DNA of 43,939 nt, from the IMG/VR virus record IMGVR_UViG_3300046755_000082, positions 1 through 43,939 of that record. The stretch is one strand, 5' to 3'. How positions within the stretch are numbered: position 1 is the first letter of the stretch; the number at the start of each line of letters is the position of its first letter. The DNA comes from a virus. This document shows positions 9,232 through 29,036 of the stretch, one piece after another. Position numbers and translations under genes: made by a program. The notes below the pieces were generated by a model that saw nothing but the letters and a program-made list of their open reading frames with translations, searched no databases and was not told the DNA's origin.

Positions 9232-9239
9232 TATAAATA
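9232..9239 (+). promoter_or_regulatory. T4-type late promoter
   Basis: TATAAATA followed by GAAGAAATATAGGAGACC and the ATG at 9261. The predicted leader is about 16 bases and holds a strong AGGAG. It is back to back with the early promoter at 9180-9208. Confidence 0.85.
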
Positions 9240-9260: not shown

Positions 9261-9530
9261 ATGGCAGACGATTTATTTGATTTTGGGTTTACCCTTGTAG
9301 ATGAGAACGAACTGGAAGCAGTCCAGACTGCCACCGCACAGGTCGCATCAGTATCTTCTAGTGTAGAAGAGACCCAAGATAAACTTGACAAACTTTATAA
9401 CGCAGTTCAACCTCTGTTAAATAATCTCAAAATGAACCCAGAGAAAGAATACATTCTTTGGCCTAATCGAACAGAGAAAATCGAACAGTTCGAAGACCAC
9501 ATTCAGGCAATCTATCAAGGCGACAAGTAA
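9261..9530 (+). CDS. Conserved small T4-like phage protein (late)
   Basis: An 89-residue acidic protein: MADDLFDFGFTLVDENELE at the start, a coiled-coil-like middle (ETQDKLDKLYNAVQPLLNNL) and a conserved C-terminus (KEYILWPNRTEKIEQFEDHI). This family is widespread in marine T4-like phages and usually sits among virion genes. Expression from a late promoter supports a structural or assembly role. The next gene starts at its stop codon (TAATG). Confidence 0.7.
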   Translation: MADDLFDFGFTLVDENELEAVQTATAQVASVSSSVEETQDKLDKLYNAVQPLLNNLKMNPEKEYILWPNRTEKIEQFEDHIQAIYQGDK

Positions 9531-10408
9531 TGATTCTATACAGGTCACAACCCAAAAGTTATGATACTAATAACATTATCAACTTAGAAACTAAAAGAAA
9601 TTTTGTTAACAGAATTTTAGAAACAGAGTCTAAATTCAATGACCGTGGTTTGGTCAGAGACGATATCATTTCCATGATGAGTGATGCCACAGTCATTGAT
9701 GGATTATTGTGTTTATCTGCGTATCAAACTATTCTTGTTGTAACTTCATTTAGTAAACATAATTACCCCGACAGAATGAGAGACACATTATACCGACCAA
9801 TAAAAAGTGCGGGTGACCATATGTTACCCATTGTTCATGCAATGAATGAGTCTTTACCTGAGATGTATGTAACTCAAGCAGATGATGTTAGTAACTATTA
9901 TACCAAACTTTATGATGAATTTAATATTCCTTATGTAACGGTTGATGATTATTTTAGATTAGATAATGATTTCAAACCAAGAAAATTTATGAAAACTCGA
10001 TTTGAAAATGGAGAAGAATTTGAGGGAACTAAAACAGGTAAAGGTGTTGTTTTTGATGCTGTTGTTCTTCTAGGTTGCGAATCTATGTTGCGTGGAAAAC
10101 ATAAAGCAGAAGATATTAGAAAAAAGTTTCAACCATATTGCACTGACAATTTTGATTTGATTGACATTTATCGGGGCGATTTTAGGAAAATTACGGGTAA
10201 ATCTGCCAATATAGATACAATAGTAAATAAGTTTATTAACGTTGTCAACACACCTAAAAAGGTATATGACAGTAAATCTTTATATGACACAAAACAATTT
10301 GACATACGTTATGTTGATGTTGTTCGGACAAAATATCAATTGATGTATGAAAGACTGGGCAAAAATATAAAGAATGTAAATGATTATTTCAGAGTTTATA
10401 AATCATGA
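9530..10408 (+). CDS. Late protein, tandem paralogue A, unknown
   Basis: A 292-residue protein. The second half has VVFDAVVLLGCESM, then a KAEDIRKKFQPYC and NFDLIDIYRG segment, repeated in recognisable form in the next gene (FDAVVLIG, ASDIKDDFASYC, DFELMDIYHRG). The alternating hydrophobic strands and helices (YQTILVVTSFS, VVFDAVVLL) suggest a Rossmann-like fold. I do not recognise the family. It is translated from the late promoter at 9232 and overlaps the next gene by four bases. Confidence 0.55.
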   Translation: MILYRSQPKSYDTNNIINLETKRNFVNRILETESKFNDRGLVRDDIISMMSDATVIDGLLCLSAYQTILVVTSFSKHNYPDRMRDTLYRPIKSAGDHMLPIVHAMNESLPEMYVTQADDVSNYYTKLYDEFNIPYVTVDDYFRLDNDFKPRKFMKTRFENGEEFEGTKTGKGVVFDAVVLLGCESMLRGKHKAEDIRKKFQPYCTDNFDLIDIYRGDFRKITGKSANIDTIVNKFINVVNTPKKVYDSKSLYDTKQFDIRYVDVVRTKYQLMYERLGKNIKNVNDYFRVYKS

Positions 10409-11262
10409 GTAACACAGATACCTATATTATCAGAAGTAGAAATAATGATGAATTCAAACTTGAATTATTATTTCCTCTCGCCGTAAATCGTTTTACGGCA
10501 AACATTATAGAATACGCACAAGACCCAACACACGGTTGGCAACCATCGGAAGTTGGTGGTCAATTATCTTATGATAAGTGGGGACAGTTAGTTCAATATA
10601 TTATAGTTGCATACAATTTAGTTACATATCAGGGATATGATAATGTTCTTATCATACCAAACTTTACAAATGATAAGTATCCTCGTGTTCAGAAAGAGAA
10701 TGGACTTGTCGAAGACAACATATCTGGGAATATGATAGGTGTAGTAAACACTGCATTTAGTCTTTCTGATACAACGAACATTTATACCGCATTTCCTGAA
10801 GGTGATAACTTTGCAAAGTATTTATTGGAAATGTATGATTCCAGTAAAGTCCTAACATCAAATAAAATGTATGAAATGGGGGATGAGACATACGAGATAA
10901 CTGTGCCTGAAGGAGTTAAGTTTGATGCAGTAGTTCTAATTGGTATTGATATCAATGAAGGAGAATCATTCTCTGCATCAGATATCAAAGATGACTTTGC
11001 ATCATATTGCACATCAGACTTTGAGTTGATGGACATATACCATAGAGGGGAGAGTGATATTGAGGCTTTCAAACGTGATGATTATTTAGAAACTCTGTCA
11101 CAAACAACTAGACTTACGGGTGATGAAAAAGATAATATTGCAATGTCTAACTTTATAAATAATTACAGTTATAGAAAAGACGGTTTCGGTGATACAGATT
11201 TTGTTAATCATCGTTTACCAAAGTCTGCTGAGATAATAAGAAATAGTGTAAAAATTTACTAA
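10405..11262 (+). CDS. Late protein, tandem paralogue B, unknown
   Basis: A 285-residue protein sharing the core block FDAVVL-x-G ... DI-x3-F-x2-YC-x2-(D/N)F-x-L-x-DIY with its upstream neighbour, plus a matching upstream strand (GYDNVLIIPNF against YQTILVVTSFS). The N-terminal 40 residues are beta-rich and differ between the two. The pair arose by an old duplication; identity by eye is low. It ends in TAATG, coupling to the kinase-like gene. No function is recognised. Confidence 0.55.
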   Translation: MSNTDTYIIRSRNNDEFKLELLFPLAVNRFTANIIEYAQDPTHGWQPSEVGGQLSYDKWGQLVQYIIVAYNLVTYQGYDNVLIIPNFTNDKYPRVQKENGLVEDNISGNMIGVVNTAFSLSDTTNIYTAFPEGDNFAKYLLEMYDSSKVLTSNKMYEMGDETYEITVPEGVKFDAVVLIGIDINEGESFSASDIKDDFASYCTSDFELMDIYHRGESDIEAFKRDDYLETLSQTTRLTGDEKDNIAMSNFINNYSYRKDGFGDTDFVNHRLPKSAEIIRNSVKIY

Positions 11263-11939
11263 TGATTAAATTTAAGACATTCATGAATGAGGGTGTAGAT
11301 GACCCCGCAATCTTTAAGGCAGTATTCCTTGCGGGTGGGCCTGGCTCTGGAAAGTCATTCATCGTAGGTAAGACTGGTCTCCCTGCATTGGGTATGAAAG
11401 TTGTAAACTCTGACGATGCATTTGAAACCGCAATGAAAAAGGCGGGTAAGAAAATGACATCAGATGAAATCTTCTCTGATGAAGGCCAAACAATCCGTGA
11501 CCGTTCCAAGAGATTGACTGCCAAAAGACAATCGATGTATATCTCAGGTCGTTTAGGTTTGGTTATTGATGGAACTGGCAAAGACCCTGATAAGATTAAA
11601 AAACAGGCAAAAACATTACAAGACCTCGGATATGATACCATGATGATTCTTGTAAACACCACTCTCGAAGTGGCGATTGATAGAGATAAAGATAGAGATA
11701 GAACTCTGGGTGACAAAGAGGTTACCAAATACTGGACAACGGTTCAAAAGAATATTGGTGCGTTACAACAGATATTTGGTAAGAAGAAGTTTATTATAGT
11801 TGACAACACCGAAATAAAAAATACCGAAAAAGAAACTGTTCGGGCATATCGTGATGTAAAGAAGTTTCTTGATAAAGAACCCGACAATGCACTTGCAAAG
11901 AAGTGGATTAAACAGGAGCGTGAGAAGAAGAAACGTTAG
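11262..11939 (+). CDS. P-loop kinase (zeta-toxin/AAA_33-like) with capsid-targeting-like N-terminus
   Basis: A 225-residue protein with Walker A GGPGSGKS at residues 25-32, a VVNSDDAFE segment after it, LVIDGTGKD (Walker B-like) and a late R-D-K-D-R cluster typical of a LID. This is the fold of small-molecule or polynucleotide kinases and zeta toxins. The substrate is not evident. The first residues, MIKFKTFMNE then G, resemble the T4 capsid-targeting peptide MKTYxEFIAE cut by the prohead protease. It is expressed from the late promoter. This suggests packaging and injection, which is an inference. Its end overlaps the convergent gene at 11908-12060. Confidence 0.75.
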   Translation: MIKFKTFMNEGVDDPAIFKAVFLAGGPGSGKSFIVGKTGLPALGMKVVNSDDAFETAMKKAGKKMTSDEIFSDEGQTIRDRSKRLTAKRQSMYISGRLGLVIDGTGKDPDKIKKQAKTLQDLGYDTMMILVNTTLEVAIDRDKDRDRTLGDKEVTKYWTTVQKNIGALQQIFGKKKFIIVDNTEIKNTEKETVRAYRDVKKFLDKEPDNALAKKWIKQEREKKKR

Positions 11940-12642: not shown

Positions 12643-12719
12643 TGGTGAACGCACAGGGACTTGAACCCCGAACCTACAGCTTAGAAGGCTGTTGCTCTAT
12701 CCAGTTGAGCTATGCGTCC
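12643..12719 (-). tRNA. tRNA-Arg (anticodon UCU)
   Basis: A 77-base cloverleaf on the minus strand: acceptor GGACGCA/TGCGTTC, D arm GCTC...GAGC, anticodon stem ACAGC/GCTGT around CTTCTAA (anticodon TCT), T arm CGGGG-TTCAAGT-CCCTG, and an encoded CCA end. It reads AGA, a codon favoured by AT-rich phage genes. An early promoter lies 16 bases upstream, and the next gene starts within 20 bases after the CCA, so RNase processing must separate them. Confidence 0.95.
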
Positions 12720-12763: not shown

Positions 12764-13398
12764 GACTTTTTTTTGGTAACAACGTGTATTTTTACATTAT
12801 CAGAGACAGGTATTTTAATGTTGTTATGAGAATGATAAAGGTTGAACTCTACTTCGGAAAATTCTTTGAACATCTCCGTCCAGATAGGTCTCCAGTTATC
12901 CGCCAACCTTACTGTGTTTTGAGTGCTTCGGTCACTTTCCAGAATGAGGTCAGTAAAACTCTCTAGATTCATATCAAAGATACTGTCAAACCCATAGATG
13001 TGAACTTCAGTCGCTTTCATCTTGTTACATGCATAATGCACCGCAAAGTGACCGCAGTTAAAATTGGTTGCCGCTTGTCCAAGACTTTGGCCTGGCAGTG
13101 CAGCATATTCTGGAATGTGTTGATAAAAACCTTTGATGAGATGAGAATACTTTAGGTAGAATGACCCAGATGCTTCCATCCAAACACGAGGACGAGTTCC
13201 AAGAATCCAGTCATACATGTCCAGTTGAATCTTACCCTCTTGAAGTGCCTTCATCATTTTGAAGTCAACCATACAGGTTGCCCACACTTCCTTGCGAGGG
13301 ATTTCAAATGGAGGCATGTTACATATTAGTAATTTGCCCGGCAAACCACGTTCAAATAATCCCGCATGGTCACCATTACCTAAAACATTAACTCTCAT
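12760..13398 (-). CDS. Rossmann-like protein, glycosyltransferase-cluster member (DUF115/sialyltransferase-like?)
   Basis: A 212-residue protein starting MRVNVLGNGDHAGLFERG: a strand followed by a G-N-G-D nucleotide-binding-like turn. Later landmarks are CMVDFKMMKALQEG, SFYLKYSHL, GQSLGQAATNF and TEVHIYGFDSIFD. The GxG...start with a late YGFDS resembles DUF115 or CMP-sialic-acid-using transferases, which I offer only as a suggestion. It is the last gene of the 18 kb cluster, its ATG overlaps the sulfotransferase gene, and its stop sits in the next promoter. Confidence 0.45.
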   Translation of the reverse strand: MRVNVLGNGDHAGLFERGLPGKLLICNMPPFEIPRKEVWATCMVDFKMMKALQEGKIQLDMYDWILGTRPRVWMEASGSFYLKYSHLIKGFYQHIPEYAALPGQSLGQAATNFNCGHFAVHYACNKMKATEVHIYGFDSIFDMNLESFTDLILESDRSTQNTVRLADNWRPIWTEMFKEFSEVEFNLYHSHNNIKIPVSDNVKIHVVTKKKS

Positions 13399-13978
13399 AT
13401 CCAAATCTTTCAAAGTCTTCTTTATAGGTCTCTTGTATATACTCTTTTATATCAGGACGGATTATATCATTTCTGGTCGGATAATTGTAACCCAAGAGTT
13501 CATGAATACCGACATTCTTTTTAAGTAATTTTATCTTAGTTCCTAACACTTCTTCCATCTTGATAATATCATTTGATAGATTTTCATATCGAAGAATGAT
13601 ATCATTTTCCCTAATCCATGTTGTTAATGGTAGTTTCCATACATGATTTTTACCTTTGAGCCAAGATTCAAAGTTAAATCCTTGAGGGTAATCACCCTGA
13701 CCATAACCCCTGTCTCGAATCCAATGAAGAAATCCACTTACAAGTCTATCATAGGGATGCCGACATATAGAAAAGATAGGCAATGAAGACATGTATTTAG
13801 AAAAGTCTACATTCATTTGTTCTCTTGGTAAATGACCGCCATATACTTTATCACTCTTATATTGATTTGCAACATCAATAATACTTTCATCGAAACGATG
13901 ACGAATAAACTCTGATATTGTTGTTCCTGCTGTTTTAGGAACATGAACAAAGACCAAACGGTCAGGAACTATTATCAT
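13388..13978 (-). CDS. Sulfotransferase (Sulfotransfer_2-like)
   Basis: A 196-residue protein with the two PAPS-binding motifs of sulfotransferases: FVHVPKTAGTT at residues 10-20 (5'-phosphosulfate loop) and ICRHPYDRLVSGF at about 70-82 (3'-phosphate site). It would move sulfate from PAPS to a sugar hydroxyl or amine. The conserved Lys of the loop (K15) and Arg/Ser of the second motif are present, so it is probably active. It overlaps both neighbours by a few bases. Confidence 0.85.
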   Translation of the reverse strand: MIIVPDRLVFVHVPKTAGTTISEFIRHRFDESIIDVANQYKSDKVYGGHLPREQMNVDFSKYMSSLPIFSICRHPYDRLVSGFLHWIRDRGYGQGDYPQGFNFESWLKGKNHVWKLPLTTWIRENDIILRYENLSNDIIKMEEVLGTKIKLLKKNVGIHELLGYNYPTRNDIIRPDIKEYIQETYKEDFERFGYES

Positions 13979-14385
13979 AGTTTGACAAGTTCTCTATTCA
14001 ATACATGTTGTTCTTCAATCAAGTCTTTTGATTGTCCGAAATAACGAACCGCATGATGTTTTTCACACATATACTCATTGATTGATTGGTCTGCGAAGTC
14101 AGTGGTTCTCCACAACTCACCTAAAATACGACCAAACTTACCCTTACCATCTTTATGTGTTTTCAAGACAATGCCATTTGGGTCATCCAATAGACCAGTC
14201 AGAAATGCTTTTGCGGCAAGACCATATTTTTTCTCTTCTTTATCGCGTGTGCGTGACTCAGGTGTATCAATACCATACATCCGAATGCGTTGTTTACGCA
14301 TCCATACACCAAACCCTAAATCAATATCAACGTCAACCGTATCACCATCGATAATTTTGACGACATTACATCTATATTCATACAT
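13975..14385 (-). CDS. Staphylococcal nuclease-like (SNase) protein
   Basis: A 136-residue protein matching thermonuclease: IIDGDTVDVD at residues 11-20, RIRMYGIDTPESR at 33-45 and FGRILGEL at 84-91. The catalytic set R35, D40, E43 and R86 is in place, numbered almost as in S. aureus nuclease. It should cut single- or double-stranded DNA or RNA with calcium. No signal peptide, so it acts inside the infected cell, perhaps in host DNA breakdown. It sits between sulfotransferase and glycosyltransferase genes and is unrelated in function. Confidence 0.88.
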   Translation of the reverse strand: MYEYRCNVVKIIDGDTVDVDIDLGFGVWMRKQRIRMYGIDTPESRTRDKEEKKYGLAAKAFLTGLLDDPNGIVLKTHKDGKGKFGRILGELWRTTDFADQSINEYMCEKHHAVRYFGQSKDLIEEQHVLNRELVKL

Positions 14386-14387
14386 TA

Positions 14388-14609
14388 CTATTTGTGCCTT
14401 AAATCACTGCCCGTTCCAAAGTGGTCTTTGATTACACCAATCTTTTCTTCTGCGGTTGCGATATTTTCAATTTGTGTTTCAATTGCTTGCACCACTTCGG
14501 GATGTTCTCCGATACCAACGGAATTTTCCATATAAACTCTGATGTTTGCTCTTGCGATTGCAATTTCACCTTCAAGTTTTGTTACTAATGCTTCAAGTAA
14601 ATAATTCAT
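14388..14609 (-). CDS. Small helical protein, unknown
   Basis: A 73-residue protein, probably two helices (LLEALVTKLEGEIAIARANI and VVQAIETQIENIATAEEKIG), with a GGAGACAG ribosome site before the ATG at 14609. Similar small coiled-coil proteins occur in T4-like marine phages, but I cannot assign a function. Confidence 0.5.
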   Translation of the reverse strand: MNYLLEALVTKLEGEIAIARANIRVYMENSVGIGEHPEVVQAIETQIENIATAEEKIGVIKDHFGTGSDLRHK

Positions 14610-15261
14610 TTATCTGTCTCCTAATTGCGTCATTACCTTTTTTGCCCGTATGATGGACAATCTTTGGGTTTCTTACATTTATACCATCTATGTAGTCTAA
14701 TCGTAAAGTATTATATGTGTGGGGCAACGGATGGATATATGTAAGTTTTTGAAGAGGGTCGCCCTCCATCATTAGATACAATACTTCTTGGTCACCCTGC
14801 ACAGGATTCCGAAGACATTCGTCTGCCCACATCTTCACAATGTTTGGTGTGCCTTCAATCAAAACAACACCAGAGTTATACCATTCACCCAGTTCATTTC
14901 TACGTCTAGTCCACGGACGGTCTTCAACCATACCAAGACGATGTGGTTGTGACAGGTCAAAGATGTGTTCAATGTTACCCTTGATTTCACAATCAGTGTC
15001 AATCCAACATACCTTCGACACATCATCTAAACGAGACGCATCAAGTAATGCACGGGGTTTTTTGAACCACCCCTTTGCTTCACTCAACACTTCAAAGTGG
15101 TCATCAAAGTCATCATAGACTTGTTGCCACATATAATCACTCATACCAAAGTCAGCAATTACAAGTTGCGCCTCTGGATTATGTTCACGGAATTTCTGTA
15201 TGAACCACGGGAGTTGCCATTCGGTCTTCTCGTCACAACCTGTTACAAATATCTCACGCAT
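14593..15261 (-). CDS. GT-A glycosyltransferase (GT8-like)
   Basis: A 222-residue protein beginning MREIFVTGCDEKTEWQL, with VCWIDTDCEIKGN (DxD metal/nucleotide-sugar motif at about residues 87-89), YNSGVVLIEG and QEVLYLMM, the order seen in GT8-type retaining transferases. It would transfer a sugar from an NDP-sugar using Mn2+. There is no membrane segment. It is in the middle of the minus-strand block and overlaps both flanking genes. Confidence 0.7.
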   Translation of the reverse strand: MREIFVTGCDEKTEWQLPWFIQKFREHNPEAQLVIADFGMSDYMWQQVYDDFDDHFEVLSEAKGWFKKPRALLDASRLDDVSKVCWIDTDCEIKGNIEHIFDLSQPHRLGMVEDRPWTRRRNELGEWYNSGVVLIEGTPNIVKMWADECLRNPVQGDQEVLYLMMEGDPLQKLTYIHPLPHTYNTLRLDYIDGINVRNPKIVHHTGKKGNDAIRRQINELFT

Positions 15262-15901
15262 CGATTATATTGTATCCTTTCTTCCAGTTGTGTTTTGCAA
15301 GACAACCTTCTTCTACTTGAATTGTGGTAAAACTATCTTGCGCCTCTGCACAGAACGGATAGTATTCTTGTAACCACGGGAAGTTATCTAGATTTAGATA
15401 TATGTCTGTTGGTCGTGCAAGTTGAGGCGCGGCCTCTACAAGTTTCTTCGCGCCTGCGGGCGTGACCATGTATGCATGTGCGCCTGGGAAGTATCGTTTA
15501 GTGGTTAACTGATTAACTCCTATCAATGTTGGTGTATTCCAGTTACCATAAGAGGGATGACCAATATTCATTACATAATGAAACGGTTGAGTTGGGAGAG
15601 GTGCAGTGATGACCGCATCGTGTTCAAAGATTGCATAGGTCTCTTCACCTGATGCACACTCTTTCCATAATGAATAGTGTGATAGGAATGCAGAGATACA
15701 ATTCAGATTGCGAGAGTATCTCTCGTCAAATGCACTAGGTGGAATACCCTCACGTTCTAGTAGTTCAAGTGGTTCATCATTCGGTGTAATAGCCCGAAAC
15801 CATTTTACGGTCACGCCGTGTTTTTTACCTGACGCGATACAACGTTCTGCGACATCGATACTCGAAGAGTTATGCATTATTGTAATTACTTTTGCTTTCA
15901 T
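15254..15901 (-). CDS. Glycosyltransferase family 25-like
   Basis: A 215-residue protein from the ATG at 15901 (MKAKVITIMHN). CISAFLSHYSLWKECASGEETYAIFEHDAVI is the GT25/LPS-type core, with E-H-D in place of the usual E-D-D acid motif. GAHAYMVTPAGAKKLVEAA follows, as in GT25 proteins. It is closely related in layout to the next upstream gene. The ATG overlaps the upstream stop as ATGA. The likely target is a surface oligosaccharide. Confidence 0.75.
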   Translation of the reverse strand: MKAKVITIMHNSSSIDVAERCIASGKKHGVTVKWFRAITPNDEPLELLEREGIPPSAFDERYSRNLNCISAFLSHYSLWKECASGEETYAIFEHDAVITAPLPTQPFHYVMNIGHPSYGNWNTPTLIGVNQLTTKRYFPGAHAYMVTPAGAKKLVEAAPQLARPTDIYLNLDNFPWLQEYYPFCAEAQDSFTTIQVEEGCLAKHNWKKGYNIIDA

Positions 15902-16596
15902 GACGTTGTGGTTGAGACCAACCCCTTCTGAATAGTTGTATAGTAAGGATAGACTACTTGCATCCACGGAAAGAACTGTTTGTTCATAAGTGCGTCATTG
16001 GGCCACATTCCTATTTCCCCTACCTTCTTCAATACTTTCTTTGCACCCTTTGGTGTAATTATATATGCGGAATTTCCAGCGAGTCCGTGAGGATAGTTGT
16101 CCTCAAGGTCTGGAACTGGTTGTAATCCCATACGCGAACTGACCTTTGAATGAAACAGACTCGCCTTTCGAGTTGCACCACGAGGGTCATTGAGTCCTAC
16201 TATACCACCTTTGAACCCATCTGTCAAGTCCGAAAATCTAAACTTGCGAATGAAGAGTGCATCGTGTTCCAGAACCATAATTGGTTCTTCAAGGTCGATT
16301 GACCTCTGCCATAAACGCATGTGACTTACCATACAGGCAATACGATTCTGTAAGTTTGCGGTCTGATAATGTTGAAGATATAGTCCTGTCGCCATGTCCA
16401 TACGGTCTTGACTTGCATTGGTTGGGAACGTCCAATCGAGTTTCAACCACATATCTTCTTCGAGTGACTCAGGTGTAGTCGCACGAAAGATTATTGGTTC
16501 AAGGTCTGAACCTGTGTCATCAATAGACTTAATGACGCGATTACATGCATCACGAGAATTGCGGTCATCAAGAAGAGTAATTATAAATACTTTCAT
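15898..16596 (-). CDS. Glycosyltransferase family 25-like
   Basis: A 232-residue protein (MKVFIITLLDDRNSRDAC start). CMVSHMRLWQRSIDLEEPIMVLEHDALF and GNSAYIITPKGAKKVLKK correspond one to one with the neighbouring gene at 15254-15901, showing a duplication inside the cluster. An ATG two codons earlier (16602) is equally possible. It carries the same E-H-D acid triplet as its sister gene. Confidence 0.75.
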   Translation of the reverse strand: MKVFIITLLDDRNSRDACNRVIKSIDDTGSDLEPIIFRATTPESLEEDMWLKLDWTFPTNASQDRMDMATGLYLQHYQTANLQNRIACMVSHMRLWQRSIDLEEPIMVLEHDALFIRKFRFSDLTDGFKGGIVGLNDPRGATRKASLFHSKVSSRMGLQPVPDLEDNYPHGLAGNSAYIITPKGAKKVLKKVGEIGMWPNDALMNKQFFPWMQVVYPYYTTIQKGLVSTTTS

Positions 16597-17302
16597 CAGC
16601 ATCTTTCACTATTGCCTCATCTTTTATAGAATATGCTCCACCATGATAACACATATGATAATGACCCTGAGACTCAGATAGGACTTGATACCATCCCTCT
16701 TCTGCTCCTCTTAGTTTCTTCTCCTTATATAGATGATTCACATAATCCCATTCTAAAACTTTCTTCGGATGAATTATTAGTGCATCGTTGATATAAAAAC
16801 CAACTTCGGTTGCTCTCATCAAATCATGATGGTATTGATTTGCATCACCTTCAGTTCTTGTATTGAAACCAATAGGTATTTCTTCATCATAACATTTGTC
16901 AATCCACTCTTGCCAATCTATCTGATTTGATACAATCGTTTCAAATCTCGCTCTAATAATGATATCTGTTTCTATTTGTTCACATATCCATGCGTGTAAT
17001 AATATTTGTTTATGCCAATGTTCAGAAGCTTTTTTATATTTTCTATATTCTGACAAAATTTTATGTTCATCTCTTCCAAGAATATCTCTTCGACCTTCAG
17101 ACTCACTGTCTGGATATGGTTGTGTATCAAATAGTGAATGATAAGTATTTTCTGGTTCATCCATACGAAAATCTGGTTCAAACGGCATTTCGATACCAGT
17201 ATAGGTTGCAGTATAAAACTCATCATGTGGAATTCTTTCTCTCAAAAAATTCGTATAGTCTTCACCCGTCCACTTACCAGATACACATAATGCGACTCTC
17301 AT
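16568..17302 (-). CDS. Putative glycosyltransferase, LPS-type
   Basis: A 244-residue protein starting MRVALCVSGKWTGEDY. The strand-turn at the N-terminus and DIIIRARFETIVSNQ (an R-x-R-F-D/E-like motif) resemble putative glycosyltransferases found next to LPS and capsule genes, including in phages. The C-terminal part has a His/Tyr-rich segment (GHYHMCYHGGAYS). The ATG at 17302 overlaps the preceding stop codon. Family assignment is weak; cluster membership is strong. Confidence 0.45.
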   Translation of the reverse strand: MRVALCVSGKWTGEDYTNFLRERIPHDEFYTATYTGIEMPFEPDFRMDEPENTYHSLFDTQPYPDSESEGRRDILGRDEHKILSEYRKYKKASEHWHKQILLHAWICEQIETDIIIRARFETIVSNQIDWQEWIDKCYDEEIPIGFNTRTEGDANQYHHDLMRATEVGFYINDALIIHPKKVLEWDYVNHLYKEKKLRGAEEGWYQVLSESQGHYHMCYHGGAYSIKDEAIVKDADESIYNYSS

Positions 17303-18627
17303 CAATTCTCTCTCAAGTATTGTTCAAGGTCTTCAGGAGTTCCTAGTCCCCACATCTCTTCAACCTCATATATCTTAATACCTTTTCCTTCGCGTATCGC
17401 ATTATTATATACAGGACAGACATAAAACTCACCATTTACTCTCTGGTCAAGCGCAATCATGTCTTCACAGAAAGACACATAATCTCTACCACGTTTCCAG
17501 TAGTAAAACCCAACAGTCGCATTGTCACTGATTGGGTCTTTCTCCGCAACCTTCACGACATTACCTAGACCATCTGTCTGTGCATATGACCACTTGGGAT
17601 GTGTTGCTTTGAAAGTAACAATACCACCATCAACATCATGTTCCTTCATTTTATACATGAAGTGTGATGAATCCCATTTTACATATTGGTCAGAGTTTGC
17701 AATAAACAGTGGTGAGTCATTATTGATATATTCTTTTGCGAGTAGAGTTGTGCAAGCAGCACCTTCTGTCATACCTTCAATCTCCACAATCTTGCAGTTT
17801 GGTGCAATCATGTTCAACATCGAATCCAGATTGTATTTCTCTCGATGTGATTTTTGGACAATGAAAATATAGTTTGCTTCAATCGCGATATTCTCTACAA
17901 CTCTTTGAATCATTGGTTTCCCATTGACATCAATCAGTGGTTTAGGAAAAGTATATCCCGCATTTGAAAAACGACTACCCGCGCCTGCCATTGGTATGAC
18001 TACGTTTAGTTTCTCATCTTTCCATCGAGGAGTTGGAGTTTGACCTTTGATTCTTTCTATTAAACCAAGATTTACATCATCAGGACTGTTCACCCTAATC
18101 ACATTTGCACTAGACCGATGCGCTGCCAACAGACCAACATGAGAGTCCTCAACAATCAAAGTCTCTTCAGGAAGAACACCCATAGTTGACATCGCTTTCC
18201 AATATATTTCGGGGTGTGGTTTTGGATTAGTTACATCACCAGAACAGAGAAAAAAATCACATAGGTGAGTAATACCAACTCTGGATAGACATTTAACCAC
18301 AGTCTTTTTAATTGCGTTAGAACAAATTCCAATTTCATATCCTTCTTTCTTTAATTCTAAAAATAAATCAATGATATTATTGTTTTTTTCAAGTGAGTCT
18401 AGTCTTCGATAAGTATAGAGTTGTTTGTCATAAAATATTTTCTTGGATTCAGACTCAGAGAACCCCATGAAACGTAATTTGTTCATGGTAGTCATACCAT
18501 CATACAAGGACAAGTGTTCGTCACGGGTGACTGCACGTTCACCCAACGCCTCATTCAATGCATCAAAATGTATATTTTTTGTATTGACCAGAACTCCATC
18601 TAGGTCAAACAATATAAGTTTTATCAT
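17302..18627 (-). CDS. Fused HAD phosphatase-nucleotidyltransferase
   Basis: A 441-residue fusion. Residues 1-200 are a HAD hydrolase of the beta-phosphoglucomutase type: FDLDGVLVN (D8, D10), ICSNA at 101-105, K136 in NPKPHPE and VEDSHVG near 159-165. Residues 207-441 are a nucleotidyltransferase: VVIPMAGAGSRF, then FPKPLIDVNGKPMI, and FIANSDQY as the metal-binding Asp segment. Together they could dephosphorylate or isomerise a sugar phosphate and make an NDP-sugar, supplying the glycosyltransferases nearby. All visible catalytic residues are intact. Confidence 0.85.
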   Translation of the reverse strand: MIKLILFDLDGVLVNTKNIHFDALNEALGERAVTRDEHLSLYDGMTTMNKLRFMGFSESESKKIFYDKQLYTYRRLDSLEKNNNIIDLFLELKKEGYEIGICSNAIKKTVVKCLSRVGITHLCDFFLCSGDVTNPKPHPEIYWKAMSTMGVLPEETLIVEDSHVGLLAAHRSSANVIRVNSPDDVNLGLIERIKGQTPTPRWKDEKLNVVIPMAGAGSRFSNAGYTFPKPLIDVNGKPMIQRVVENIAIEANYIFIVQKSHREKYNLDSMLNMIAPNCKIVEIEGMTEGAACTTLLAKEYINNDSPLFIANSDQYVKWDSSHFMYKMKEHDVDGGIVTFKATHPKWSYAQTDGLGNVVKVAEKDPISDNATVGFYYWKRGRDYVSFCEDMIALDQRVNGEFYVCPVYNNAIREGKGIKIYEVEEMWGLGTPEDLEQYLREN

Positions 18628-19151
18628 TTCTTCTTACCGATGAAAACATGGTCTTTCCATCTTGCAGACCGTTCTTCCCACGGGCCAAAATCGATATAAT
18701 CTAACACAACTTTTAGACCACATTCCTCGGCGATTGCCTTGAAACTGTCATCCATAAATCTCCAACAGTCAATACTATCATGTCGAGGGCCAGTAGATGG
18801 TGCAATTAAAATAATATGTGAACCCGTTTTCAAAACTCGTGTCATCTCAGTAACACTTCGAAAGGGATTCTTGACATGTTCAAGGGTTTGACCACTCACA
18901 ACCAAATCGACAGACTCGTCCTCAAGGGGAATTGTATAAGGGCCAGGCATTGGTAAGTCAACATTCAATCCTGCCACAAGGTCTGCAATTAGATATTTCT
19001 CTGCAACATCTTCCCAGATTGGACGATATGACCTATCCTTATCTGCTTTCAATGCACGACCACCAACATCCAAAACTGTGATGTCTTTTCCGATAACTTC
19101 ATTTAGGTGTTCTCTACACCTTTTCATATTTGCGATTGATGAGGGATGCAT
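18624..19151 (-). CDS. SAM-dependent methyltransferase (Methyltransf_11-like)
   Basis: A 175-residue class I methyltransferase. VLDVGGRALK at about 26-35 is motif I, the acidic end of strand 2 is near IADL, SVDLVVSGQTLEHVKNPF is motifs II/III, and RVLKTGSHIILIAPS is the post-III strand. This is the Methyltransf_11 order. The likely target is a sugar or small molecule of the pathway rather than DNA, since there is no NPPY motif. It overlaps the fusion gene by four bases. Confidence 0.8.
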   Translation of the reverse strand: MHPSSIANMKRCREHLNEVIGKDITVLDVGGRALKADKDRSYRPIWEDVAEKYLIADLVAGLNVDLPMPGPYTIPLEDESVDLVVSGQTLEHVKNPFRSVTEMTRVLKTGSHIILIAPSTGPRHDSIDCWRFMDDSFKAIAEECGLKVVLDYIDFGPWEERSARWKDHVFIGKKK

Positions 19152-19152
19152 A

Positions 19153-19749
19153 TTATACCTTTATACTAAACTGAACTTGTCCGTGTTGTTCTTTCAATAA
19201 ACCATTACTATAACAAAACTTGTCTACCGCTCGAGTGACACCAGTCTTACCAAATTTTGTATCTGGCCATTTATAATCATCTCCAAGAATAAGACCGCCA
19301 ACTCTGACAACCTTTAGTGCATTGTTCAAGTCACGAAGACACCCCTCGTAGGAATGGTCACCGTCAACATAAATCCAATCAAGTTTCTTATCAAAACTAT
19401 CAAACCACTCATTAGAGTTCATTCGATAAATGGTAACACGAGGGTCTGTTCCTATTGTTGACTTCACTGTTCTATAAACACTATCATAGTATTTTTGGAA
19501 ATCTTTTTCGGTATTACCCCCACACATCTTGGAATATCTTTCTAGATAGTTTTCATATGTGCCATGTTCTGTAGATTCTTTATATGGTTCAATACTCCAT
19601 GCATCTACGAGATGAAGTTCTCTCACTCCTCGACCCAAGAATTTCTGTGAGGAGTTTCCAAACCAGACGCCCACTTCTGCGCCTATCGAGTTTGGTTCTA
19701 TCAACCCCATAATATTTACGGAGTCTTTGTTTATTGGGCTTCCCATCAT
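19153..19749 (-). CDS. SAM-dependent methyltransferase (Methyltransf_24-like)
   Basis: A 198-residue protein. IGAEVGVWFGNSSQKFL is motif I, HLVDAWS ends strand 2, LDWIYVDGDHSYEG is the D-G-x-H block of Methyltransf_24/cephalosporin-hydroxylase-like O-methyltransferases, and VGGLILGDDYKW follows. Such proteins methylate sugar or catechol-type hydroxyls using a metal. The start at the double ATG (19749 or 19746) overlaps the upstream stop. Confidence 0.8.
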   Translation of the reverse strand: MMGSPINKDSVNIMGLIEPNSIGAEVGVWFGNSSQKFLGRGVRELHLVDAWSIEPYKESTEHGTYENYLERYSKMCGGNTEKDFQKYYDSVYRTVKSTIGTDPRVTIYRMNSNEWFDSFDKKLDWIYVDGDHSYEGCLRDLNNALKVVRVGGLILGDDYKWPDTKFGKTGVTRAVDKFCYSNGLLKEQHGQVQFSIKV

Positions 19750-20435
19750 CTCCAATAGTTCCTTTGTGCAGCACTATCAAAGTCGAATCCCCAATAGTCA
19801 ATATCTTTTTTATACCAGTCAGCAACAATCTGAATTGTTTTATCGTTATAGTAATCAGTATATGTAGACTGTTTATATCCAGTCACATTGCGAGGTTCGG
19901 GATTGAATAGGACACCCAGATATGATTTTACGTCATCATCATAGTGTTCAAACCTAAGAATGTCACACCTAAGTTTACCTTTTTCATCAGTCACATAATC
20001 CAATGCGGGATACCACCCACGGATTGCACGATGCCAGAAGAACTTTCTACCACCCCATTCGTGTCGAGTTTCAAGGAATGCTTCAAACGAGGAACAGTCA
20101 ATATAATCTGTTCTACCAAAATGGTCAGAACCATCTTCTTTATAGATTACCTTTTTTGCAAATTCAAATCGCGATACAACTCGACTCCACGGGTTACGAA
20201 CAATTGCAAATGCACGATGATTTTCTCGAACCTGTTGATTCCAGTCTCTCCACCTTGCATGTTCAAAACCGTGATGTTCGCGGTTTTCTTGCATAACGCG
20301 AAAAAGGTCTTCTGTATACTGACGATTAATATGATTTTCTGGTGTTGCGAGTAATACTTTTGGTCGCAGTTCAGGATTTCTCCTGATTGTCATCCCCCCG
20401 TTTTTGGGGATATGGACGAAGATTTTCTTTCCCAT
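19746..20435 (-). CDS. Sulfotransferase-like protein
   Basis: A 229-residue protein with IFVHIPKNGGMTIRR at residues 5-19 (PAPS 5' loop, K11) and FAIVRNPWSRVVSRFEF at about 76-92 (3'-phosphate site). WSRVVSRF is a close match to carbohydrate sulfotransferases. It overlaps the upstream methyltransferase gene by 46 bases, the longest such overlap in the block. Probably active on the same glycan as the sulfotransferase at 13388-13978. Confidence 0.85.
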   Translation of the reverse strand: MGKKIFVHIPKNGGMTIRRNPELRPKVLLATPENHINRQYTEDLFRVMQENREHHGFEHARWRDWNQQVRENHRAFAIVRNPWSRVVSRFEFAKKVIYKEDGSDHFGRTDYIDCSSFEAFLETRHEWGGRKFFWHRAIRGWYPALDYVTDEKGKLRCDILRFEHYDDDVKSYLGVLFNPEPRNVTGYKQSTYTDYYNDKTIQIVADWYKKDIDYWGFDFDSAAQRNYWR

Positions 20436-20959
20436 TTCACATACATCCTATTATTATCAGGCATAAATTCTGTAACTTTGAAACCTGTATTTTGTGTCAA
20501 CATGATATGATGATTTATATTCCAATTAAAGAAGGGAACTTGGTTGACTAATTCATTCTCATGGTCACGATGGCCTGGATTACATCTCCAATAAATTCGA
20601 CATTCATCTTTTAGACACCTTCGTGTCAGTGAATTGATTTGTTCTACTACTTCAGACCAGCCGCCAAAATTAATAGAGCCGAGGCAAAAAGCAACATCAA
20701 ATTTAGTTTCTGGTCTATAGTCCTCGATTGCGACTTGTTCGTCACTCCCAATGTCTGTAATATCGATGCCATGTAATCCTTTAATATGTCTCTTAAACGG
20801 ATTAACCCCGCAACCGACATCCAAGACGGTTTCTCCTTCTTGTATTTCATCTATCAATCTCCATCCTGTCCAATAATAATCATCCAATCCCGCAGTGCGT
20901 GAACTGGGCCAATGGTAAGTAAAGTAATCTTTTAACCATTCTCTGTCTTTGGCGTCCAT
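20390..20959 (-). CDS. SAM-dependent methyltransferase
   Basis: A 189-residue class I methyltransferase: TVLDVGCGVNPFK at about 44-56 is motif I, LHGIDITDIG ends strand 2, and KFDVAFCLGSINFGGW is motif II. A Trp-rich N-terminus (DYYWTGWRLIDE) may bind substrate. The C-terminal 15 residues run into the next gene. The substrate is unknown; the context points to a pathway sugar. Confidence 0.8.
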   Translation of the reverse strand: MDAKDREWLKDYFTYHWPSSRTAGLDDYYWTGWRLIDEIQEGETVLDVGCGVNPFKRHIKGLHGIDITDIGSDEQVAIEDYRPETKFDVAFCLGSINFGGWSEVVEQINSLTRRCLKDECRIYWRCNPGHRDHENELVNQVPFFNWNINHHIMLTQNTGFKVTEFMPDNNRMYVKWERKSSSISPKTGG

Positions 20960-21468
20960 ATGTAATAATCTCTTTTTCCGTCATTATGTTTTTCAAGACC
21001 TTCTTCTTCAACAAATTCTTTGATAAGAAGGTTCTGCATTTGTATCTGTTCTATCATATTGTCATCGTCTCGATACCATTTATAGTCGGGATACTTGATA
21101 TTCCAACCACCACATTCGTGCCACCAATCAAAACATTCTTGATTAGTTCTATATACCAGATGAATAGGACAGTTCCATCTCATCAACCAATATATATGAT
21201 AAGCAAATGTATGAGACTTGATTATGCGAATACCTTCACCACTAAATGGTTTATCCCAATATTTCTCATCATTTCGAAACTCCATGCCAGGGTCAAAGTA
21301 TGCACCTCTATGCACTAAGTCTCTACAACCATCACGACCATGCCAATACTCTCGTTCAGGTGACCTATCACTCTTGTCTATATCGTCACGAATGTATAGG
21401 TGGTCTTCAACATAACCACTCCATCGTGAACCAGGCGCACCAGTGACAAAGATGTATTTACCGTTCAT
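20932..21468 (-). CDS. P-loop sulfotransferase-like protein
   Basis: A 178-residue protein with IFVTGAPGSRWSGYVEDH at residues 5-22, a modified PAPS loop with Arg instead of the usual Lys, and IRIIKSHTFAYHI followed by PIHLVYRTNQECFDWW in the position of the 3'-phosphate motif. The fold looks like a sulfotransferase, but activity is less certain than for the two clear copies. It overlaps neighbours on both sides. Confidence 0.6.
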   Translation of the reverse strand: MNGKYIFVTGAPGSRWSGYVEDHLYIRDDIDKSDRSPEREYWHGRDGCRDLVHRGAYFDPGMEFRNDEKYWDKPFSGEGIRIIKSHTFAYHIYWLMRWNCPIHLVYRTNQECFDWWHECGGWNIKYPDYKWYRDDDNMIEQIQMQNLLIKEFVEEEGLEKHNDGKRDYYIWTPKTENG

Positions 21469-22096
21469 TCTTTGGTCTTATCCCTTGCCATACTTGTTCA
21501 TCCAACCAGTGAGAGTCAACAGGCTCCACATATTTTGCATTTTGGTCTTTTGCAATATCTTTCTCAATTCGTTCATCATTATATGCAATCGGAAAGTCAA
21601 GAACCTTTGACAACCACTTCAGATACGCACCACCATACAAATATAACGACTCATGAGAAAGGAACTGTAAGTCGGCATCTAGTTTGTAATAATATCCTAG
21701 TGCTTGTGGCAATGTGAATTCGTTTCTAACCCTAAACTGTTGTTCCATATTTATATTACGGTCTCGAACTACAATACAGACCTTAACATCATACCCTACG
21801 TTTTGTGCCTCCTTCATGACTTCTTGTATCTTTGGAACTTGTTTCACTCCGTCATACACAAAAGGCACACTGACGTTTGCAACAACCGCAGAACTTTTCA
21901 ACATACTCTTCGTCTTTGATGGGTCTACCCAACATTCTGCAAAGGGTTCTTCGTCACTTGGTATCCAATACTTGTCACCAAAATCCCATCCACTCACATA
22001 TGGATGATAACTAAACACTTTACTGAATAGATGATTGCCAGACCCCTGTGGGCCTGTTATGATTAATAGTTTTTTATAATCGTTGTTGTCCGACAT
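21458..22096 (-). CDS. P-loop sulfotransferase-like protein
   Basis: A 212-residue protein with LLIITGPQGSGNHLFSKVF at about residues 10-28 (P-loop G-P-Q-G-S-G-N-H, as in phage sulfotransferase-like proteins) and VKVCIVVRDRNINMEQQF in the 3'-phosphate position. It could also be a small kinase, but the GNH turn and the neighbouring sulfotransferases favour sulfuryl transfer. It is adjacent to the similar gene at 20932-21468. Confidence 0.6.
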   Translation of the reverse strand: MSDNNDYKKLLIITGPQGSGNHLFSKVFSYHPYVSGWDFGDKYWIPSDEEPFAECWVDPSKTKSMLKSSAVVANVSVPFVYDGVKQVPKIQEVMKEAQNVGYDVKVCIVVRDRNINMEQQFRVRNEFTLPQALGYYYKLDADLQFLSHESLYLYGGAYLKWLSKVLDFPIAYNDERIEKDIAKDQNAKYVEPVDSHWLDEQVWQGIRPKNER

Positions 22097-22754
22097 AGGT
22101 TCTCACTTTCAATGGGTTGATTTCATCTGTTGGCCCTGTTCCAGAGTCAGGACTGAATACAAATAATGTAACATCCTCACCCTTATTACACATAAAATTA
22201 TGTAAAACATTTCTCTCCATGACCCAACAATCCCCCGCCTTGATAGGGAACATTACATCATTATCAAGTTCAATCTCACCTTTACCAGACAGGACTAATC
22301 CGATGCGTTGACTTGGATGAGTGTGGAGAGTCTGTTTCATCCCTGCGGGGAAGTGGACATAGTTGATGACGGGAAGTCCAAGACGGCCAGGATTGACTGC
22401 GGTGGTGTTCGTTCCGCCGTCCATGTAAGATAGGTTGCCTTTTGGATTATCATGTGGTATGAACATGCGGTCATCGTTGAGATGCAGACCATAGAACTTG
22501 ATGTGAGCAAACACAGAGGTATCATTATGTGTCTCAACCGTGAACTCATTGTCTGTCTGCCCTGCGAAACTGTTAGTCTCAACTGACCAACCGTTCTTCA
22601 TATGGACACTACAGTCTTTACCCATAATATAACTTGTTCCTATCGAGTTATTGTTATTGATATAAGTCGTATTGACACCCCTTATAACTTGGATATCATA
22701 ATTCCAAATATCGGTAACCTGATAAGTCTCTCCATTATCAATCTGTTTCATCAT
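22074..22754 (-). CDS. Cupin-domain protein
   Basis: A 226-residue protein. The C-terminal half is a cupin: KQTLHTHPSQRIGLVLSGKGEIEL and GDCWVMERNVLHNFM give the two motifs with metal-binding His residues (H-x-H early, H late). The N-terminal half is beta-rich and may be a second, degenerate cupin. Cupins in sugar pathways act as epimerases, isomerases or dioxygenases. Which one applies here cannot be told. Confidence 0.75.
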   Translation of the reverse strand: MMKQIDNGETYQVTDIWNYDIQVIRGVNTTYINNNNSIGTSYIMGKDCSVHMKNGWSVETNSFAGQTDNEFTVETHNDTSVFAHIKFYGLHLNDDRMFIPHDNPKGNLSYMDGGTNTTAVNPGRLGLPVINYVHFPAGMKQTLHTHPSQRIGLVLSGKGEIELDNDVMFPIKAGDCWVMERNVLHNFMCNKGEDVTLFVFSPDSGTGPTDEINPLKVRTYVGQQRL

Positions 22755-23302
22755 AATCCTGTCACCTTCCGTATCTCATCAGGTATAAAGGGTCTGGTCA
22801 TTCTTTCAGGATGCCAGACAATTGCACATATGTTGTCTTTCATCCAAGACTCAATGTTACCATTCCCATCAATATATAAGTATACACCATTTGGGGGCTG
22901 TTTGTCAATAGAAATATTATGAAAACTGTTCACACGGATGTGGGTAGGTGCATCTCCATATACAAGATGTTCGGTATCATAGTGACCTTCGATTTCCTTC
23001 GTGCTACCGCCAAGCATCTCTGTTAGGAGAAACGCACCATGACAGATACCAAGAATGGGTTTACCCAGTCTTGACATTTCGGTTATGAGAGATACTTCTG
23101 TGATAATACGAATCTCTTCGTTATCCCCACCTGTGACGATGAGAAGGTCGAGAGACTCCGCAAGGGATTCATAATCTAAGTCTTCACGATTTGGGATGGG
23201 GATAAGTTCATGACCCTTCAACAACCGATACCAGTTGTGGTCTAAAGAGTCATGAACTTGTCCGTTGTGCGTGAGGACTCGTTGTGTGAGTCCTACGTTC
23301 AT
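22751..23302 (-). CDS. Class I glutamine amidotransferase-like protein
   Basis: A 183-residue protein with the triad of class I amidotransferases: LGICHGAFLL (nucleophile C87) and AIVWHPERM (H164, E166), plus VTGGD near 57-60. The nearest type is the gamma-glutamyl hydrolase/PuuD-like C26 group. It could release ammonia for an amination in the pathway or hydrolyse a gamma-glutamyl adduct. No synthetase partner is fused. It abuts the ferritin-like gene. Confidence 0.8.
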   Translation of the reverse strand: MNVGLTQRVLTHNGQVHDSLDHNWYRLLKGHELIPIPNREDLDYESLAESLDLLIVTGGDNEEIRIITEVSLITEMSRLGKPILGICHGAFLLTEMLGGSTKEIEGHYDTEHLVYGDAPTHIRVNSFHNISIDKQPPNGVYLYIDGNGNIESWMKDNICAIVWHPERMTRPFIPDEIRKVTGL

Positions 23303-24001
23303 TTACCAACCGTAGACTGTGTTCACAAGTTCGCGTGAACCTTTTGCTTCGACTGTATTTGCACACGAGATTTCAAACAGGTCTTTACGCATTGCTTCGA
23401 TAATACGAAGAACACGACTCTGTGTTTTCTCATCGGTTGCAACTTTGCGTAACTTGTATGCACCGATACCACTATGGAAACCTTCGTCCTTTGCAATCTC
23501 GCGATAACGACCAGAAATGAAACTATCTTCGATAGTATCTGCCATCTGATTCCATACCGCTTCTGCACGACCTTCCGCAACCAACTGATATGCGGCGAGG
23601 ACTGCCTCGTCATTCTCTGCGTCATACTTTTCTAACAGAGATGCACCTTTGGCAGTATCCATTTCGCGTTCTTTTGCAATCGCACTTGCAGCATCTACTT
23701 CTTCACCAGTGATATGTTCAATAACTTCCTTGACCATACGATAGTGTTTTGCTTCATCTGCTGCTTGTTTTGAAAGTAATTCTAATTCTCTTGGGTCTGC
23801 ATCATCGTCTGCACTTGCGATTTGTGCGGAGATTTCAGACATGTTCATACGTTCATTGACCATGCGACCAATGAAGTGGTCAACCATTTCCTCTTTAGAA
23901 AGGTCGCCTTCGAAGTATGCCTTGACGTTCATCTTGGATGCTTCGAACAATGCTTGATTTTCGTTGCGAATTTTCTTCACAAACTCTTGTGGGTTTAACA
24001 T
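23303..24001 (-). CDS. Ferritin-like di-iron protein
   Basis: A 232-residue, nearly all-helical protein with two E-x2-H motifs, EAKH (E83, H86) and EGFH (E173, H176), and further Glu residues (E50, E56, E143) that fit a four-helix di-iron site. Similar scaffolds act as oxygenases, for example on amines or fatty acids. It is not NrdB, which is encoded elsewhere in the window. It has its own ribosome site (AAGGAAC) and a TATAAATA late box at 24036-24043, so it may be expressed at a different time from the rest of the block. Confidence 0.7.
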   Translation of the reverse strand: MLNPQEFVKKIRNENQALFEASKMNVKAYFEGDLSKEEMVDHFIGRMVNERMNMSEISAQIASADDDADPRELELLSKQAADEAKHYRMVKEVIEHITGEEVDAASAIAKEREMDTAKGASLLEKYDAENDEAVLAAYQLVAEGRAEAVWNQMADTIEDSFISGRYREIAKDEGFHSGIGAYKLRKVATDEKTQSRVLRIIEAMRKDLFEISCANTVEAKGSRELVNTVYGW

Positions 24002-24035
24002 GTTAGTTCCTTATTCACTCTATTGACAATAACAT

Positions 24036-24043
24036 TATTTATA
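24036..24043 (-). promoter_or_regulatory. Late promoter for the di-iron gene
   Basis: TATAAATA on the minus strand, 35 bases before the ATG at 24001. It overlaps the last codons of the upstream glycosyltransferase. The leader carries AAGGA. Confidence 0.6.
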
Positions 24044-24827
24044 CGATTTGTTTCATCAACTCTCCAACATTCTCACCAGCATTGGGAAGTTTGTCTTTTA
24101 GGAAGAAATGAATGAAGTGACAATCCTTCAGATTATCGACTGCACTATACAGACCATTCCATTTACCGTTCATATGTTTAGTTGGAATGTTATATCTCTT
24201 GAGAAAGTAGTTCAGTAGTGTCTGGTCGGTAGACCACTTCCATGCACCCACACCATCAACAAAGTCCTTAAACTCCATACGATTGATAAAACTATGTGGG
24301 TCTTGGCCTTTGAGGTATGGTTTGAAGAGTTTACTGTTCAACAGAATGAGACCCATGTTAAAGAACTCAAACCCCAGATTGTTTGGTTTGAAATCAAGGG
24401 TATTCCGATGAAGCGGATTGTATTGCATACGCGAGTAGTTGATAATCTTGTTTTTATACCAATCCTGAATATTCATCTCGCGTTCACATACCGCACCAAA
24501 CGCATGTTCTGTTCCAAAGTCTTCAAAGATATTTGGTGCGTCTGGTCGGATATAGATGTCTGCATCTACGATTGCAATCTGGTCATAGTCATCCAGATAC
24601 TCAAACGCATTCTCCTTCTCATAGATAGGCAGATATCCCCCATACTTCATATAGGATTCCTCACTTCGTCCACTGGTAAAGATGTCAGGTTTGATACGCA
24701 GTTTGGGTTGAGTCAATACGACATGTTTAATATTATATTTCTCACAGTATTGTGCAACACTTTCAATGCAGTGTTCATATAGTTTGGACGGTTTACCTAC
24801 CGCCACTTGGAAAATCATTCTATTCAT
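24039..24827 (-). CDS. GT-A glycosyltransferase (GT8-like)
   Basis: A 262-residue protein: MIFQVAVGKPSKLYEHCIES, then YDQIAIVDADIYIRPDA with the DxD motif (VDADI), EFFNMGLILLNSKLF and CHFIHFFLKDKLP at the C-terminus (the late His binds metal in GT8). The order is that of retaining NDP-sugar transferases. It overlaps the upstream GT25-like gene by eight bases. Confidence 0.75.
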   Translation of the reverse strand: MNRMIFQVAVGKPSKLYEHCIESVAQYCEKYNIKHVVLTQPKLRIKPDIFTSGRSEESYMKYGGYLPIYEKENAFEYLDDYDQIAIVDADIYIRPDAPNIFEDFGTEHAFGAVCEREMNIQDWYKNKIINYSRMQYNPLHRNTLDFKPNNLGFEFFNMGLILLNSKLFKPYLKGQDPHSFINRMEFKDFVDGVGAWKWSTDQTLLNYFLKRYNIPTKHMNGKWNGLYSAVDNLKDCHFIHFFLKDKLPNAGENVGELMKQIV

Positions 24828-27194: not shown

Positions 27195-27523
27195 TACTTT
27201 TTGTTCAGTGCAGATGCCCCGAAGAATGCTGCAACGATTGCTGCAACCGATACGAAATAAACAGATGCGATATCTGCAATCAAAGATGCTGCAATATCTA
27301 ATCCAAATATACTTGCTACACCAATACTAGGTGGATATAACAACATACCCCACAGAGCAAACCACGCCATCTTACGTTGTGCGTCTGCCTTCGCATCTTC
27401 ATTATCAAATCTACGCATCTCTTCGGCTCGAGCGAGTTCTTCATCTGTCACTGTTCCATCCCCATCTAAATCATACTTATCATAAATTGATTGTTCTTGT
27501 AATTGTTTTTGTTTTTTTGCCAT
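27194..27523 (-). CDS. EF-hand membrane protein
   Basis: A 109-residue protein. Residues 18-29 (DLDGDGTVTDEE, after KY) form a canonical EF-hand calcium loop. A charged helix follows, then two hydrophobic spans at about 50-72 and 78-103 that should cross the inner membrane. There is no signal peptide. Calcium-binding membrane proteins of this size occur in marine phages but have no known role. It is packed between the GT-B-like and carbamoyltransferase genes. Confidence 0.7.
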   Translation of the reverse strand: MAKKQKQLQEQSIYDKYDLDGDGTVTDEELARAEEMRRFDNEDAKADAQRKMAWFALWGMLLYPPSIGVASIFGLDIAASLIADIASVYFVSVAAIVAAFFGASALNKK

Positions 27524-29025: not shown

Positions 29026-29036
29026 AGGAGTATATA

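Follow-up and report, generated by a model that had tools for sequence, protein, structure and literature searches.

A P-loop kinase encoded by a marine T4-like phage is proposed here to be an internal head protein that is carried to the next host with the phage DNA. The kinase gene lies in a 43.9-kb stretch of virus DNA (referred to here as the window, i.e. the whole stretch analysed), and its product starts MIKFKTFMNEG, the layout of which is that of a T4 capsid-targeting propeptide (CTS). According to this proposal, which as a whole is considered probable, the kinase would be synthesized late from the late promoter of its operon, after which residues 1–10 would bind the prohead core, with F4 and F7 responsible for targeting. 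A gp21-type prohead protease would then cut after Glu10, so that the intact kinase (residues 11–225) remains among the packaged DNA, and the kinase would enter the cell with the genome and phosphorylate a host or phage target ahead of phage gene expression. Packaging and cleavage, taken by themselves, are judged likely because of the conservation of residues 4, 7 and 10, the gp23 sites of relatives, the disorder predicted for the tag, the tags of homologues and fusions, the late promoters and the detection of T4-GC190 in virions.

The source phage has isolated relatives in Pelagibacter phage HTVC008M and in Methylophilales phage Melnitz. A DNA search for near relatives returned matches to a tRNA-Arg gene and to one 74.5% stretch, and nothing more; the tRNA-Arg gene (about 12658–12714) was the sole part of the window to resemble other phages widely at the DNA level. 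The kinase gene comes last in a conserved operon of four genes, which is flanked by genes on the opposite strand and for which the following features were identified:

9232–9239, + strand: exact T4-type late promoter -10 box (TATAAATA) serving the kinase operon, 29 nt before gene 1 (9261)
9261–9530, + strand: operon gene 1, 89 aa, FDFGFT family, conserved in 10 loci
9530–10408, + strand: operon gene 2, 292 aa, paralogue of gene 3
10405–11262, + strand: operon gene 3, 285 aa, paralogue of gene 2, with weak methyltransferase-like fold matches
11154–11161, + strand: second exact TATAAATA, within the upstream gene, 108 bp before the kinase ATG
11262–11939, + strand: P-loop kinase ORF, 225 aa, zeta-toxin/polynucleotide-kinase-like

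The kinase ORF starts with ATG and overlaps the upstream gene via TAATG; the stretch from the preceding in-frame stop to this ATG contains no alternative start codon. Met8 was rejected as a start because this position is occupied by I or L in several relatives. Genes 2 and 3 (9530–11262, + strand) are fast-evolving paralogues which also precede the kinase in close relatives. Searches of Pfam and PHROGs yielded nothing significant for genes 1–3, and the predicted structure of the gene 3 product, aligned with its paralogue, revealed no convincing fold (best E 1.1e-3, TM about 0.3). A search of the PADLOC defence library returned nothing for the two paralogues or the kinase.

The sequence-only reading had placed the kinase under a late promoter, and this holds for the operon, as an exact TATAAATA box was found 13–29 nt ahead of the first operon gene in all 10 operon copies, at a + strand density of about 0.10 per kb in the sequences concerned. 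The kinase would thereby be driven as the fourth gene of the operon rather than directly. The second box is also found in several relatives and may be a coding coincidence, while in two loci (L026 and L029) TATAAATA is located directly ahead of the kinase. The kinase operon is accordingly described here as putatively late-expressed.

Two further features were assigned at the N-terminus of the kinase:

11262–11291, + strand: predicted capsid-targeting propeptide MIKFKTFMNE, residues 1–10, based on conservation, pLDDT and proteome statistics
11289–11294, + strand: predicted prohead-protease scissile bond Glu10-Gly11 (M-N-E↓G, the arrow marking a known or predicted cut), based on the T4 gp21 rule and the gp23 sites of relatives

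Packaging of T4 IPIII requires no more than its first 10 residues, of which residues 4 and 7 are involved in targeting and residues 8 and 10 in processing (PMC9026906). IPII and IPIII both begin MKTYQEFIAE↓A, and an E10D change in IPIII prevents processing while leaving targeting intact. Among the seven ungapped window-type homologues, residues 2–10 were invariant only at positions 4, 7 and 10 (chance 1/84), F4 and F7 representing the invariant aromatics, and residue 8 was always I, L or M. In the 92% identical homologue L005, five of the nine tag residues were changed, compared with 6% across the rest of the protein. Furthermore, the AlphaFold model (mean pLDDT 87.5) fell below 50 in one segment only, residues 1–8, with the folded kinase starting at about residue 11.

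To place the tag in a proteome-wide context, N-termini were searched with the pattern M..[FY]..[FY]x0-8[ILMV]xE, the expectation being derived from shuffled N-termini. The earlier observation that MIKFKTFMNE-G fits the T4 internal-protein targeting pattern was borne out, the sequence being as reported and the kinase representing the sole match among the 78 ORFs of the window (0.12 expected). In T4, 4 of 277 ORFs matched (IPII, IPIII, 61.1 and 24.2; 0.34 expected), in HTVC008M five matches were obtained (0.18 expected), and in the part of S-SM1 searched a single match, SSM1_190, was found (0.07 expected). The tally for the 149-kb relative G001 is one too low, the start of its kinase having been misplaced by ORF calling.

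The same N-terminus could be read as the constrained, ordinary tail of a cytoplasmic late kinase of nucleotide or RNA metabolism, its CTS likeness being coincidental. Short F..F motifs easily arise by chance, the operon neighbours (genes 1–3) lack a CTS, and E10-G11-x-x-D14-P15 is also kept where the kinase sits inside giant proteins. Because EG-x-x-DP is retained inside such large multidomain proteins, E10-G11 may in part reflect a constraint of the fold. This reading is nevertheless considered unlikely, as the invariance is restricted to the three CTS positions, the tag is predicted to be disordered, and CTS-like tags recur without the G-x-x-DP part in other kinases (the RB43 type and the L045–L058 clade). 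In addition, such tags are found instead on fused or neighbouring enzymes, one of which has been found in virions.

With respect to the favoured reading of a cleavable tag, gp21 of T4 cuts after L/I-x-E (PMC9026906). T4 sites carry L or I at P3, whereas the kinase of the source phage carries M. Alignment with T4 gp23, which is cut at FLTE↓A, predicted the capsid-protein sites FMTE↓N in G001, FLSE↓N in the relative G002 and FLGE↓I in HTVC008M. As the gp23 site of G001 is FMTE↓N and its kinase starts MIKFKKFMTE↓G, that of the source phage starting MIKFKTFMNE↓G, M at P3 appears plausible in this lineage. A gp21-type protease is encoded by both G001 (149 kb) and G002 (144 kb), and gp21 and the head genes are absent from the 44-kb fragment of the source phage. 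The small gene immediately before gp21 in G001 was observed to start MKSYKEILQELSE↓A.

Comparable N-termini were observed throughout the kinase homologues. Besides MLKFKQFLSE↓G and MLSFNQFQYIEE↓G, they include MKTFAELQE↓G in Melnitz and MIPFILKE↓G in HTVC008M. RB43-type kinases, present in about 200 phage records, mostly of Straboviridae, are monocistronic or form a pair with a HAD nucleotidase gene, and are located near hoc. The RB43 member (RB43ORF241c), already noted in 2006 as a weak Zeta toxin match (PMC1524935), starts MKSFKDFVSLDE↓A, and the corresponding kinases of Klebsiella phage KLB25, Aeromonas phage 65, POP12 and S13 start MKSFKQFTESTLTE↓A, MKKFSEFIKLEE↓K, MKSFIEYINLDE↓A and MNFKEFCQLDE↓A, respectively. 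In some distant homologues the tags are degenerate, with Q-N-E in L042 and L043, and with longer or divergent N-termini in L026, L029 and L037.

Multidomain relatives of the kinase were also identified (L038, L039, L041, L044, L059, L060 and Atu_ph07 gp053). In the fusions L059 and L060, the tag is located at the true N-terminus (MVKNFYTFISE and MKSFLELVEE, respectively), and the fusion gp053 of Atu_ph07 starts MKWNDLNE↓A and carries VTE↓G before its kinase. Judged from these sequences, the tag is a feature that tracks the true N-terminus of a protein, even with the kinase fused behind another enzyme. Several large fusions contain L/V-x-E↓G directly preceding the kinase domain, as if they were cut into units. 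Four of them (L038, L039, L041 and L044), 1,140–1,240 aa in length, join the kinase, with L-x-E↓G in front of it, to a HIGH nucleotidyltransferase and to a HELVHH segment that looks peptidase-like by eye; in those that were scanned, DUF6321 was present as well. In their sequence organization, these four proteins look like head polyproteins. In Atu_ph07, four tandem genes (gp056–gp053; L063, 2184–7584) start MRWEQLTE, MRWEQLNE or MKWNDLNE. By eye, all four contain a YRGM motif like that of ADP-ribosyltransferases, and they may possibly constitute a packaged ADP-ribosyltransferase array with one member fused to the kinase. The Atu_ph07 virion proteome comprises 131 proteins, with CDS 31–76 as a structural cluster.

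The strongest outside support for packaging of the kinase is provided by the cytidylyltransferase T4-GC190 of S-SM1 (SSM1_190), which starts MKKFSAFLNE↓A and was detected by proteomics in purified S-SM1 virions (PMC3037559). This support is ranked highest because the same tag is present on a protein of purified particles and because the T4-GC190 family is the fusion and operon partner of the kinase, being fused to it in L059 and L060 and adjacent to it in HTVC008M (gp129–gp130). No kinase homologues turned up in cyanophage records. The literature search retrieved no virion proteomics for the source phage or any kinase homologue and no virion proteome for the RB43 group; term searches of papers on the virions of Klebsiella Jiaodavirus and of Morganella MP1 gave no such kinase. 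As a homologue is carried by the laboratory coliphage RB43, the packaging idea is open to standard T4 methods.

A packaged and processed kinase might alternatively serve head assembly or DNA packaging in the producing cell, or be a passive passenger, and so have no part as an early effector. Relatives indeed adjoin head or tail genes, such as hoc by the RB43-type kinase and, in Vibrio phage V09, a gene with a capsid vertex protein annotation close to the kinase homologue. This V09 homologue (L088, 1456–2901) has a decayed P-loop and has nonetheless retained a CTS-like N-terminus, MLGNFDSFLSE↓N. Strict conservation of the catalytic motifs in the window-like group argues against such a role, which is regarded as quite unlikely. 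The T4 internal proteins and Alt are, moreover, injected (PMC3012670, PMC5512222), and by analogy with them the kinase would also be expected to be injected into the next host.

The identity of the protein as a P-loop kinase, suggested by the sequence-only reading, was confirmed by Pfam matches to Zeta_toxin (2.4e-11) and AAA_33 (6.4e-11), and a PHROG match to polynucleotide kinase (1.5e-6) was obtained. Alignment revealed the following motifs:

11334–11357, + strand: Walker A P-loop GGPGSGKS, residues 25–32
11406–11417, + strand: N49-x-D51-D with the putative catalytic Asp, matching the position of NRDD in T4 Pnkp and DND in zeta toxin; N49 invariant, D51 at least 90%
11568–11579, + strand: D103-G-T-G acceptor-site motif (EGTG in zeta toxin)
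11682–11702, + strand: LID arginines R141, R145 and R147; R141 and R147 invariant, R145 at least 90%

By analogy with these enzymes, D51 is the putative catalytic residue. Because the P-loop, N49-x-D51, D103GTG and the LID arginines are all kept across the window-type group, the kinase looks catalytically intact.

Regarding its substrate, a nucleotide, nucleic-acid 5'-OH or NAD-precursor acceptor is favoured, with moderate confidence, over UDP-N-acetylglucosamine, which is thought appreciably less probable. Phosphorylation of the latter by a delivered zeta-type effector would weaken cell-wall synthesis or aid entry. In agreement with such a role, the features of the zeta fold (P-loop, catalytic-type Asp and GTG acceptor motif) are all present, Zeta_toxin is the top Pfam match, and zeta toxin is the best solved match of the sequence profile against the PDB (5.5e-8), T4 polynucleotide kinase and others being weaker; a precedent is offered by zeta-like kinases occurring in polyvalent proteins and in phage proteins fused to MuF, for which such a role has been proposed (PMC5512222). 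When the predicted fold was compared using Foldseek, however, the kinase domain of a bacterial polynucleotide kinase, C. thermocellum Pnkp, ranked first (E 6.5e-7, TM 0.54/0.69), followed by zeta toxin, and the acceptor motif reads DGTGK, compared with EGTGR in zeta toxin. No epsilon-type antitoxin gene adjoins the kinase, both large upstream genes being unrelated paralogues conserved with it. Furthermore, the partner enzymes point toward nucleotide or RNA chemistry, since they comprise a HIGH-family nucleotidyltransferase, DUF6267 with KWDGAP, and HAD nucleotidases, the genes of which neighbour the kinase in RB43 and Melnitz. A zeta-type effector is thus held to be doubtful.

An NadR-like salvage route, in which the kinase would convert nicotinamide riboside to NMN and the HIGH nucleotidyltransferase NMN to NAD, so that NAD is replenished as infection begins, would fit the nucleotidyltransferase-kinase fusions L059 and L060 and the adjacency in HTVC008M. 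One cyanophage partner is annotated as NadR-like, and NadR-like enzymes have been discussed for jumbo phages (PMC7824862). The fused kinases of L059 and L060 have, however, lost the catalytic Asp, and no NadR family match was obtained for the kinase in Pfam or NCBIfam, making this route improbable.

The DUF6267 partner carries KWDGAP ... EGFV ... VKL motifs; a comparison with solved structures gave no match, so that its apparent ligase likeness is one of motifs. In G001, the DUF6267 protein (L073, 1643–2860), with its ligase-like motifs, starts MKFNDFITE↓Q, and the gene after it encodes a cytidylyltransferase preceded by DFKSYLVEE↓A, which makes both proteins candidate co-packaged enzymes. The kinase, nucleotidyltransferase and DUF6267 protein of G001 each carry a tag of their own that is predicted to be cleaved in the prohead, or one closely similar to it, and the three are fused or adjacent in other phages. 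A tentative extension of the proposal is that marine T4-like phages pack these enzymes as a co-delivered head kit, which might repair host-cleaved RNA or restore nucleotides or NAD before phage transcription.

The proposed protein resembles T4 IPI, IPII and IPIII in its aromatics at positions 4 and 7, the hydrophobic-x-Glu at positions 8–10, the small residue after the cut and its predicted late expression. Unlike these small proteins, for which no enzymatic activity is known (IPI acts as an inhibitor of a restriction enzyme), its cargo is a kinase with intact motifs. T4 Alt is likewise an enzyme that is packaged in the head and processed by a protease, and it modifies host targets right after injection, whereas packaging of the kinase is a prediction; the kinase also differs from this ADP-ribosyltransferase in its chemistry, in its much smaller size and in its IP-type rather than Alt-type N-terminus. 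Delivery with phage DNA has been proposed for the zeta-like kinases of polyvalent and MuF-fused proteins (PMC5512222) as well, but the present kinase is a stand-alone protein with a T4-type CTS and a predicted gp21-type cut, consisting of a single domain where polyvalent proteins are defined by two or more effector domains. RB43ORF241c and its homologues are similarly P-loop kinases with a clear CTS (MKSFKDFVSLDE↓A in RB43), although only distantly related, the S13 homologue sharing 28% identity over 64% of the source-phage protein. The tag of S-SM1 T4-GC190 is nearly identical, on a different enzyme, i.e. a cytidylyltransferase.

No description of a CTS-tagged kinase was found in the literature searched; carried by an established delivery route, such a kinase would represent a new type of cargo. 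Few injected cargoes of the T4 type are known, namely Alt and small anti-restriction proteins. If the proposal is correct, a CTS-tagged kinase with a wide distribution in abundant marine phages and Straboviridae would mark the capsid-targeting tag as a general address label for enzymes acting ahead of phage gene expression, and a rule would be available for finding more packaged enzymes by sequence alone.

Elsewhere in the window, a long island on the - strand (about 13000–29600) was observed to contain, by eye, glycosyltransferase-, sulfotransferase- and methyltransferase-like genes. Finally, an inner ATG of the ORF at 40556–40723 (- strand) gives a product starting MKSFREFMGTSAVAGAGENPEK, which resembles T4 gp61.1 (MKTFKEFIKEDMVAGDSGGNPENIS), the N-terminus of which is itself CTS-like.
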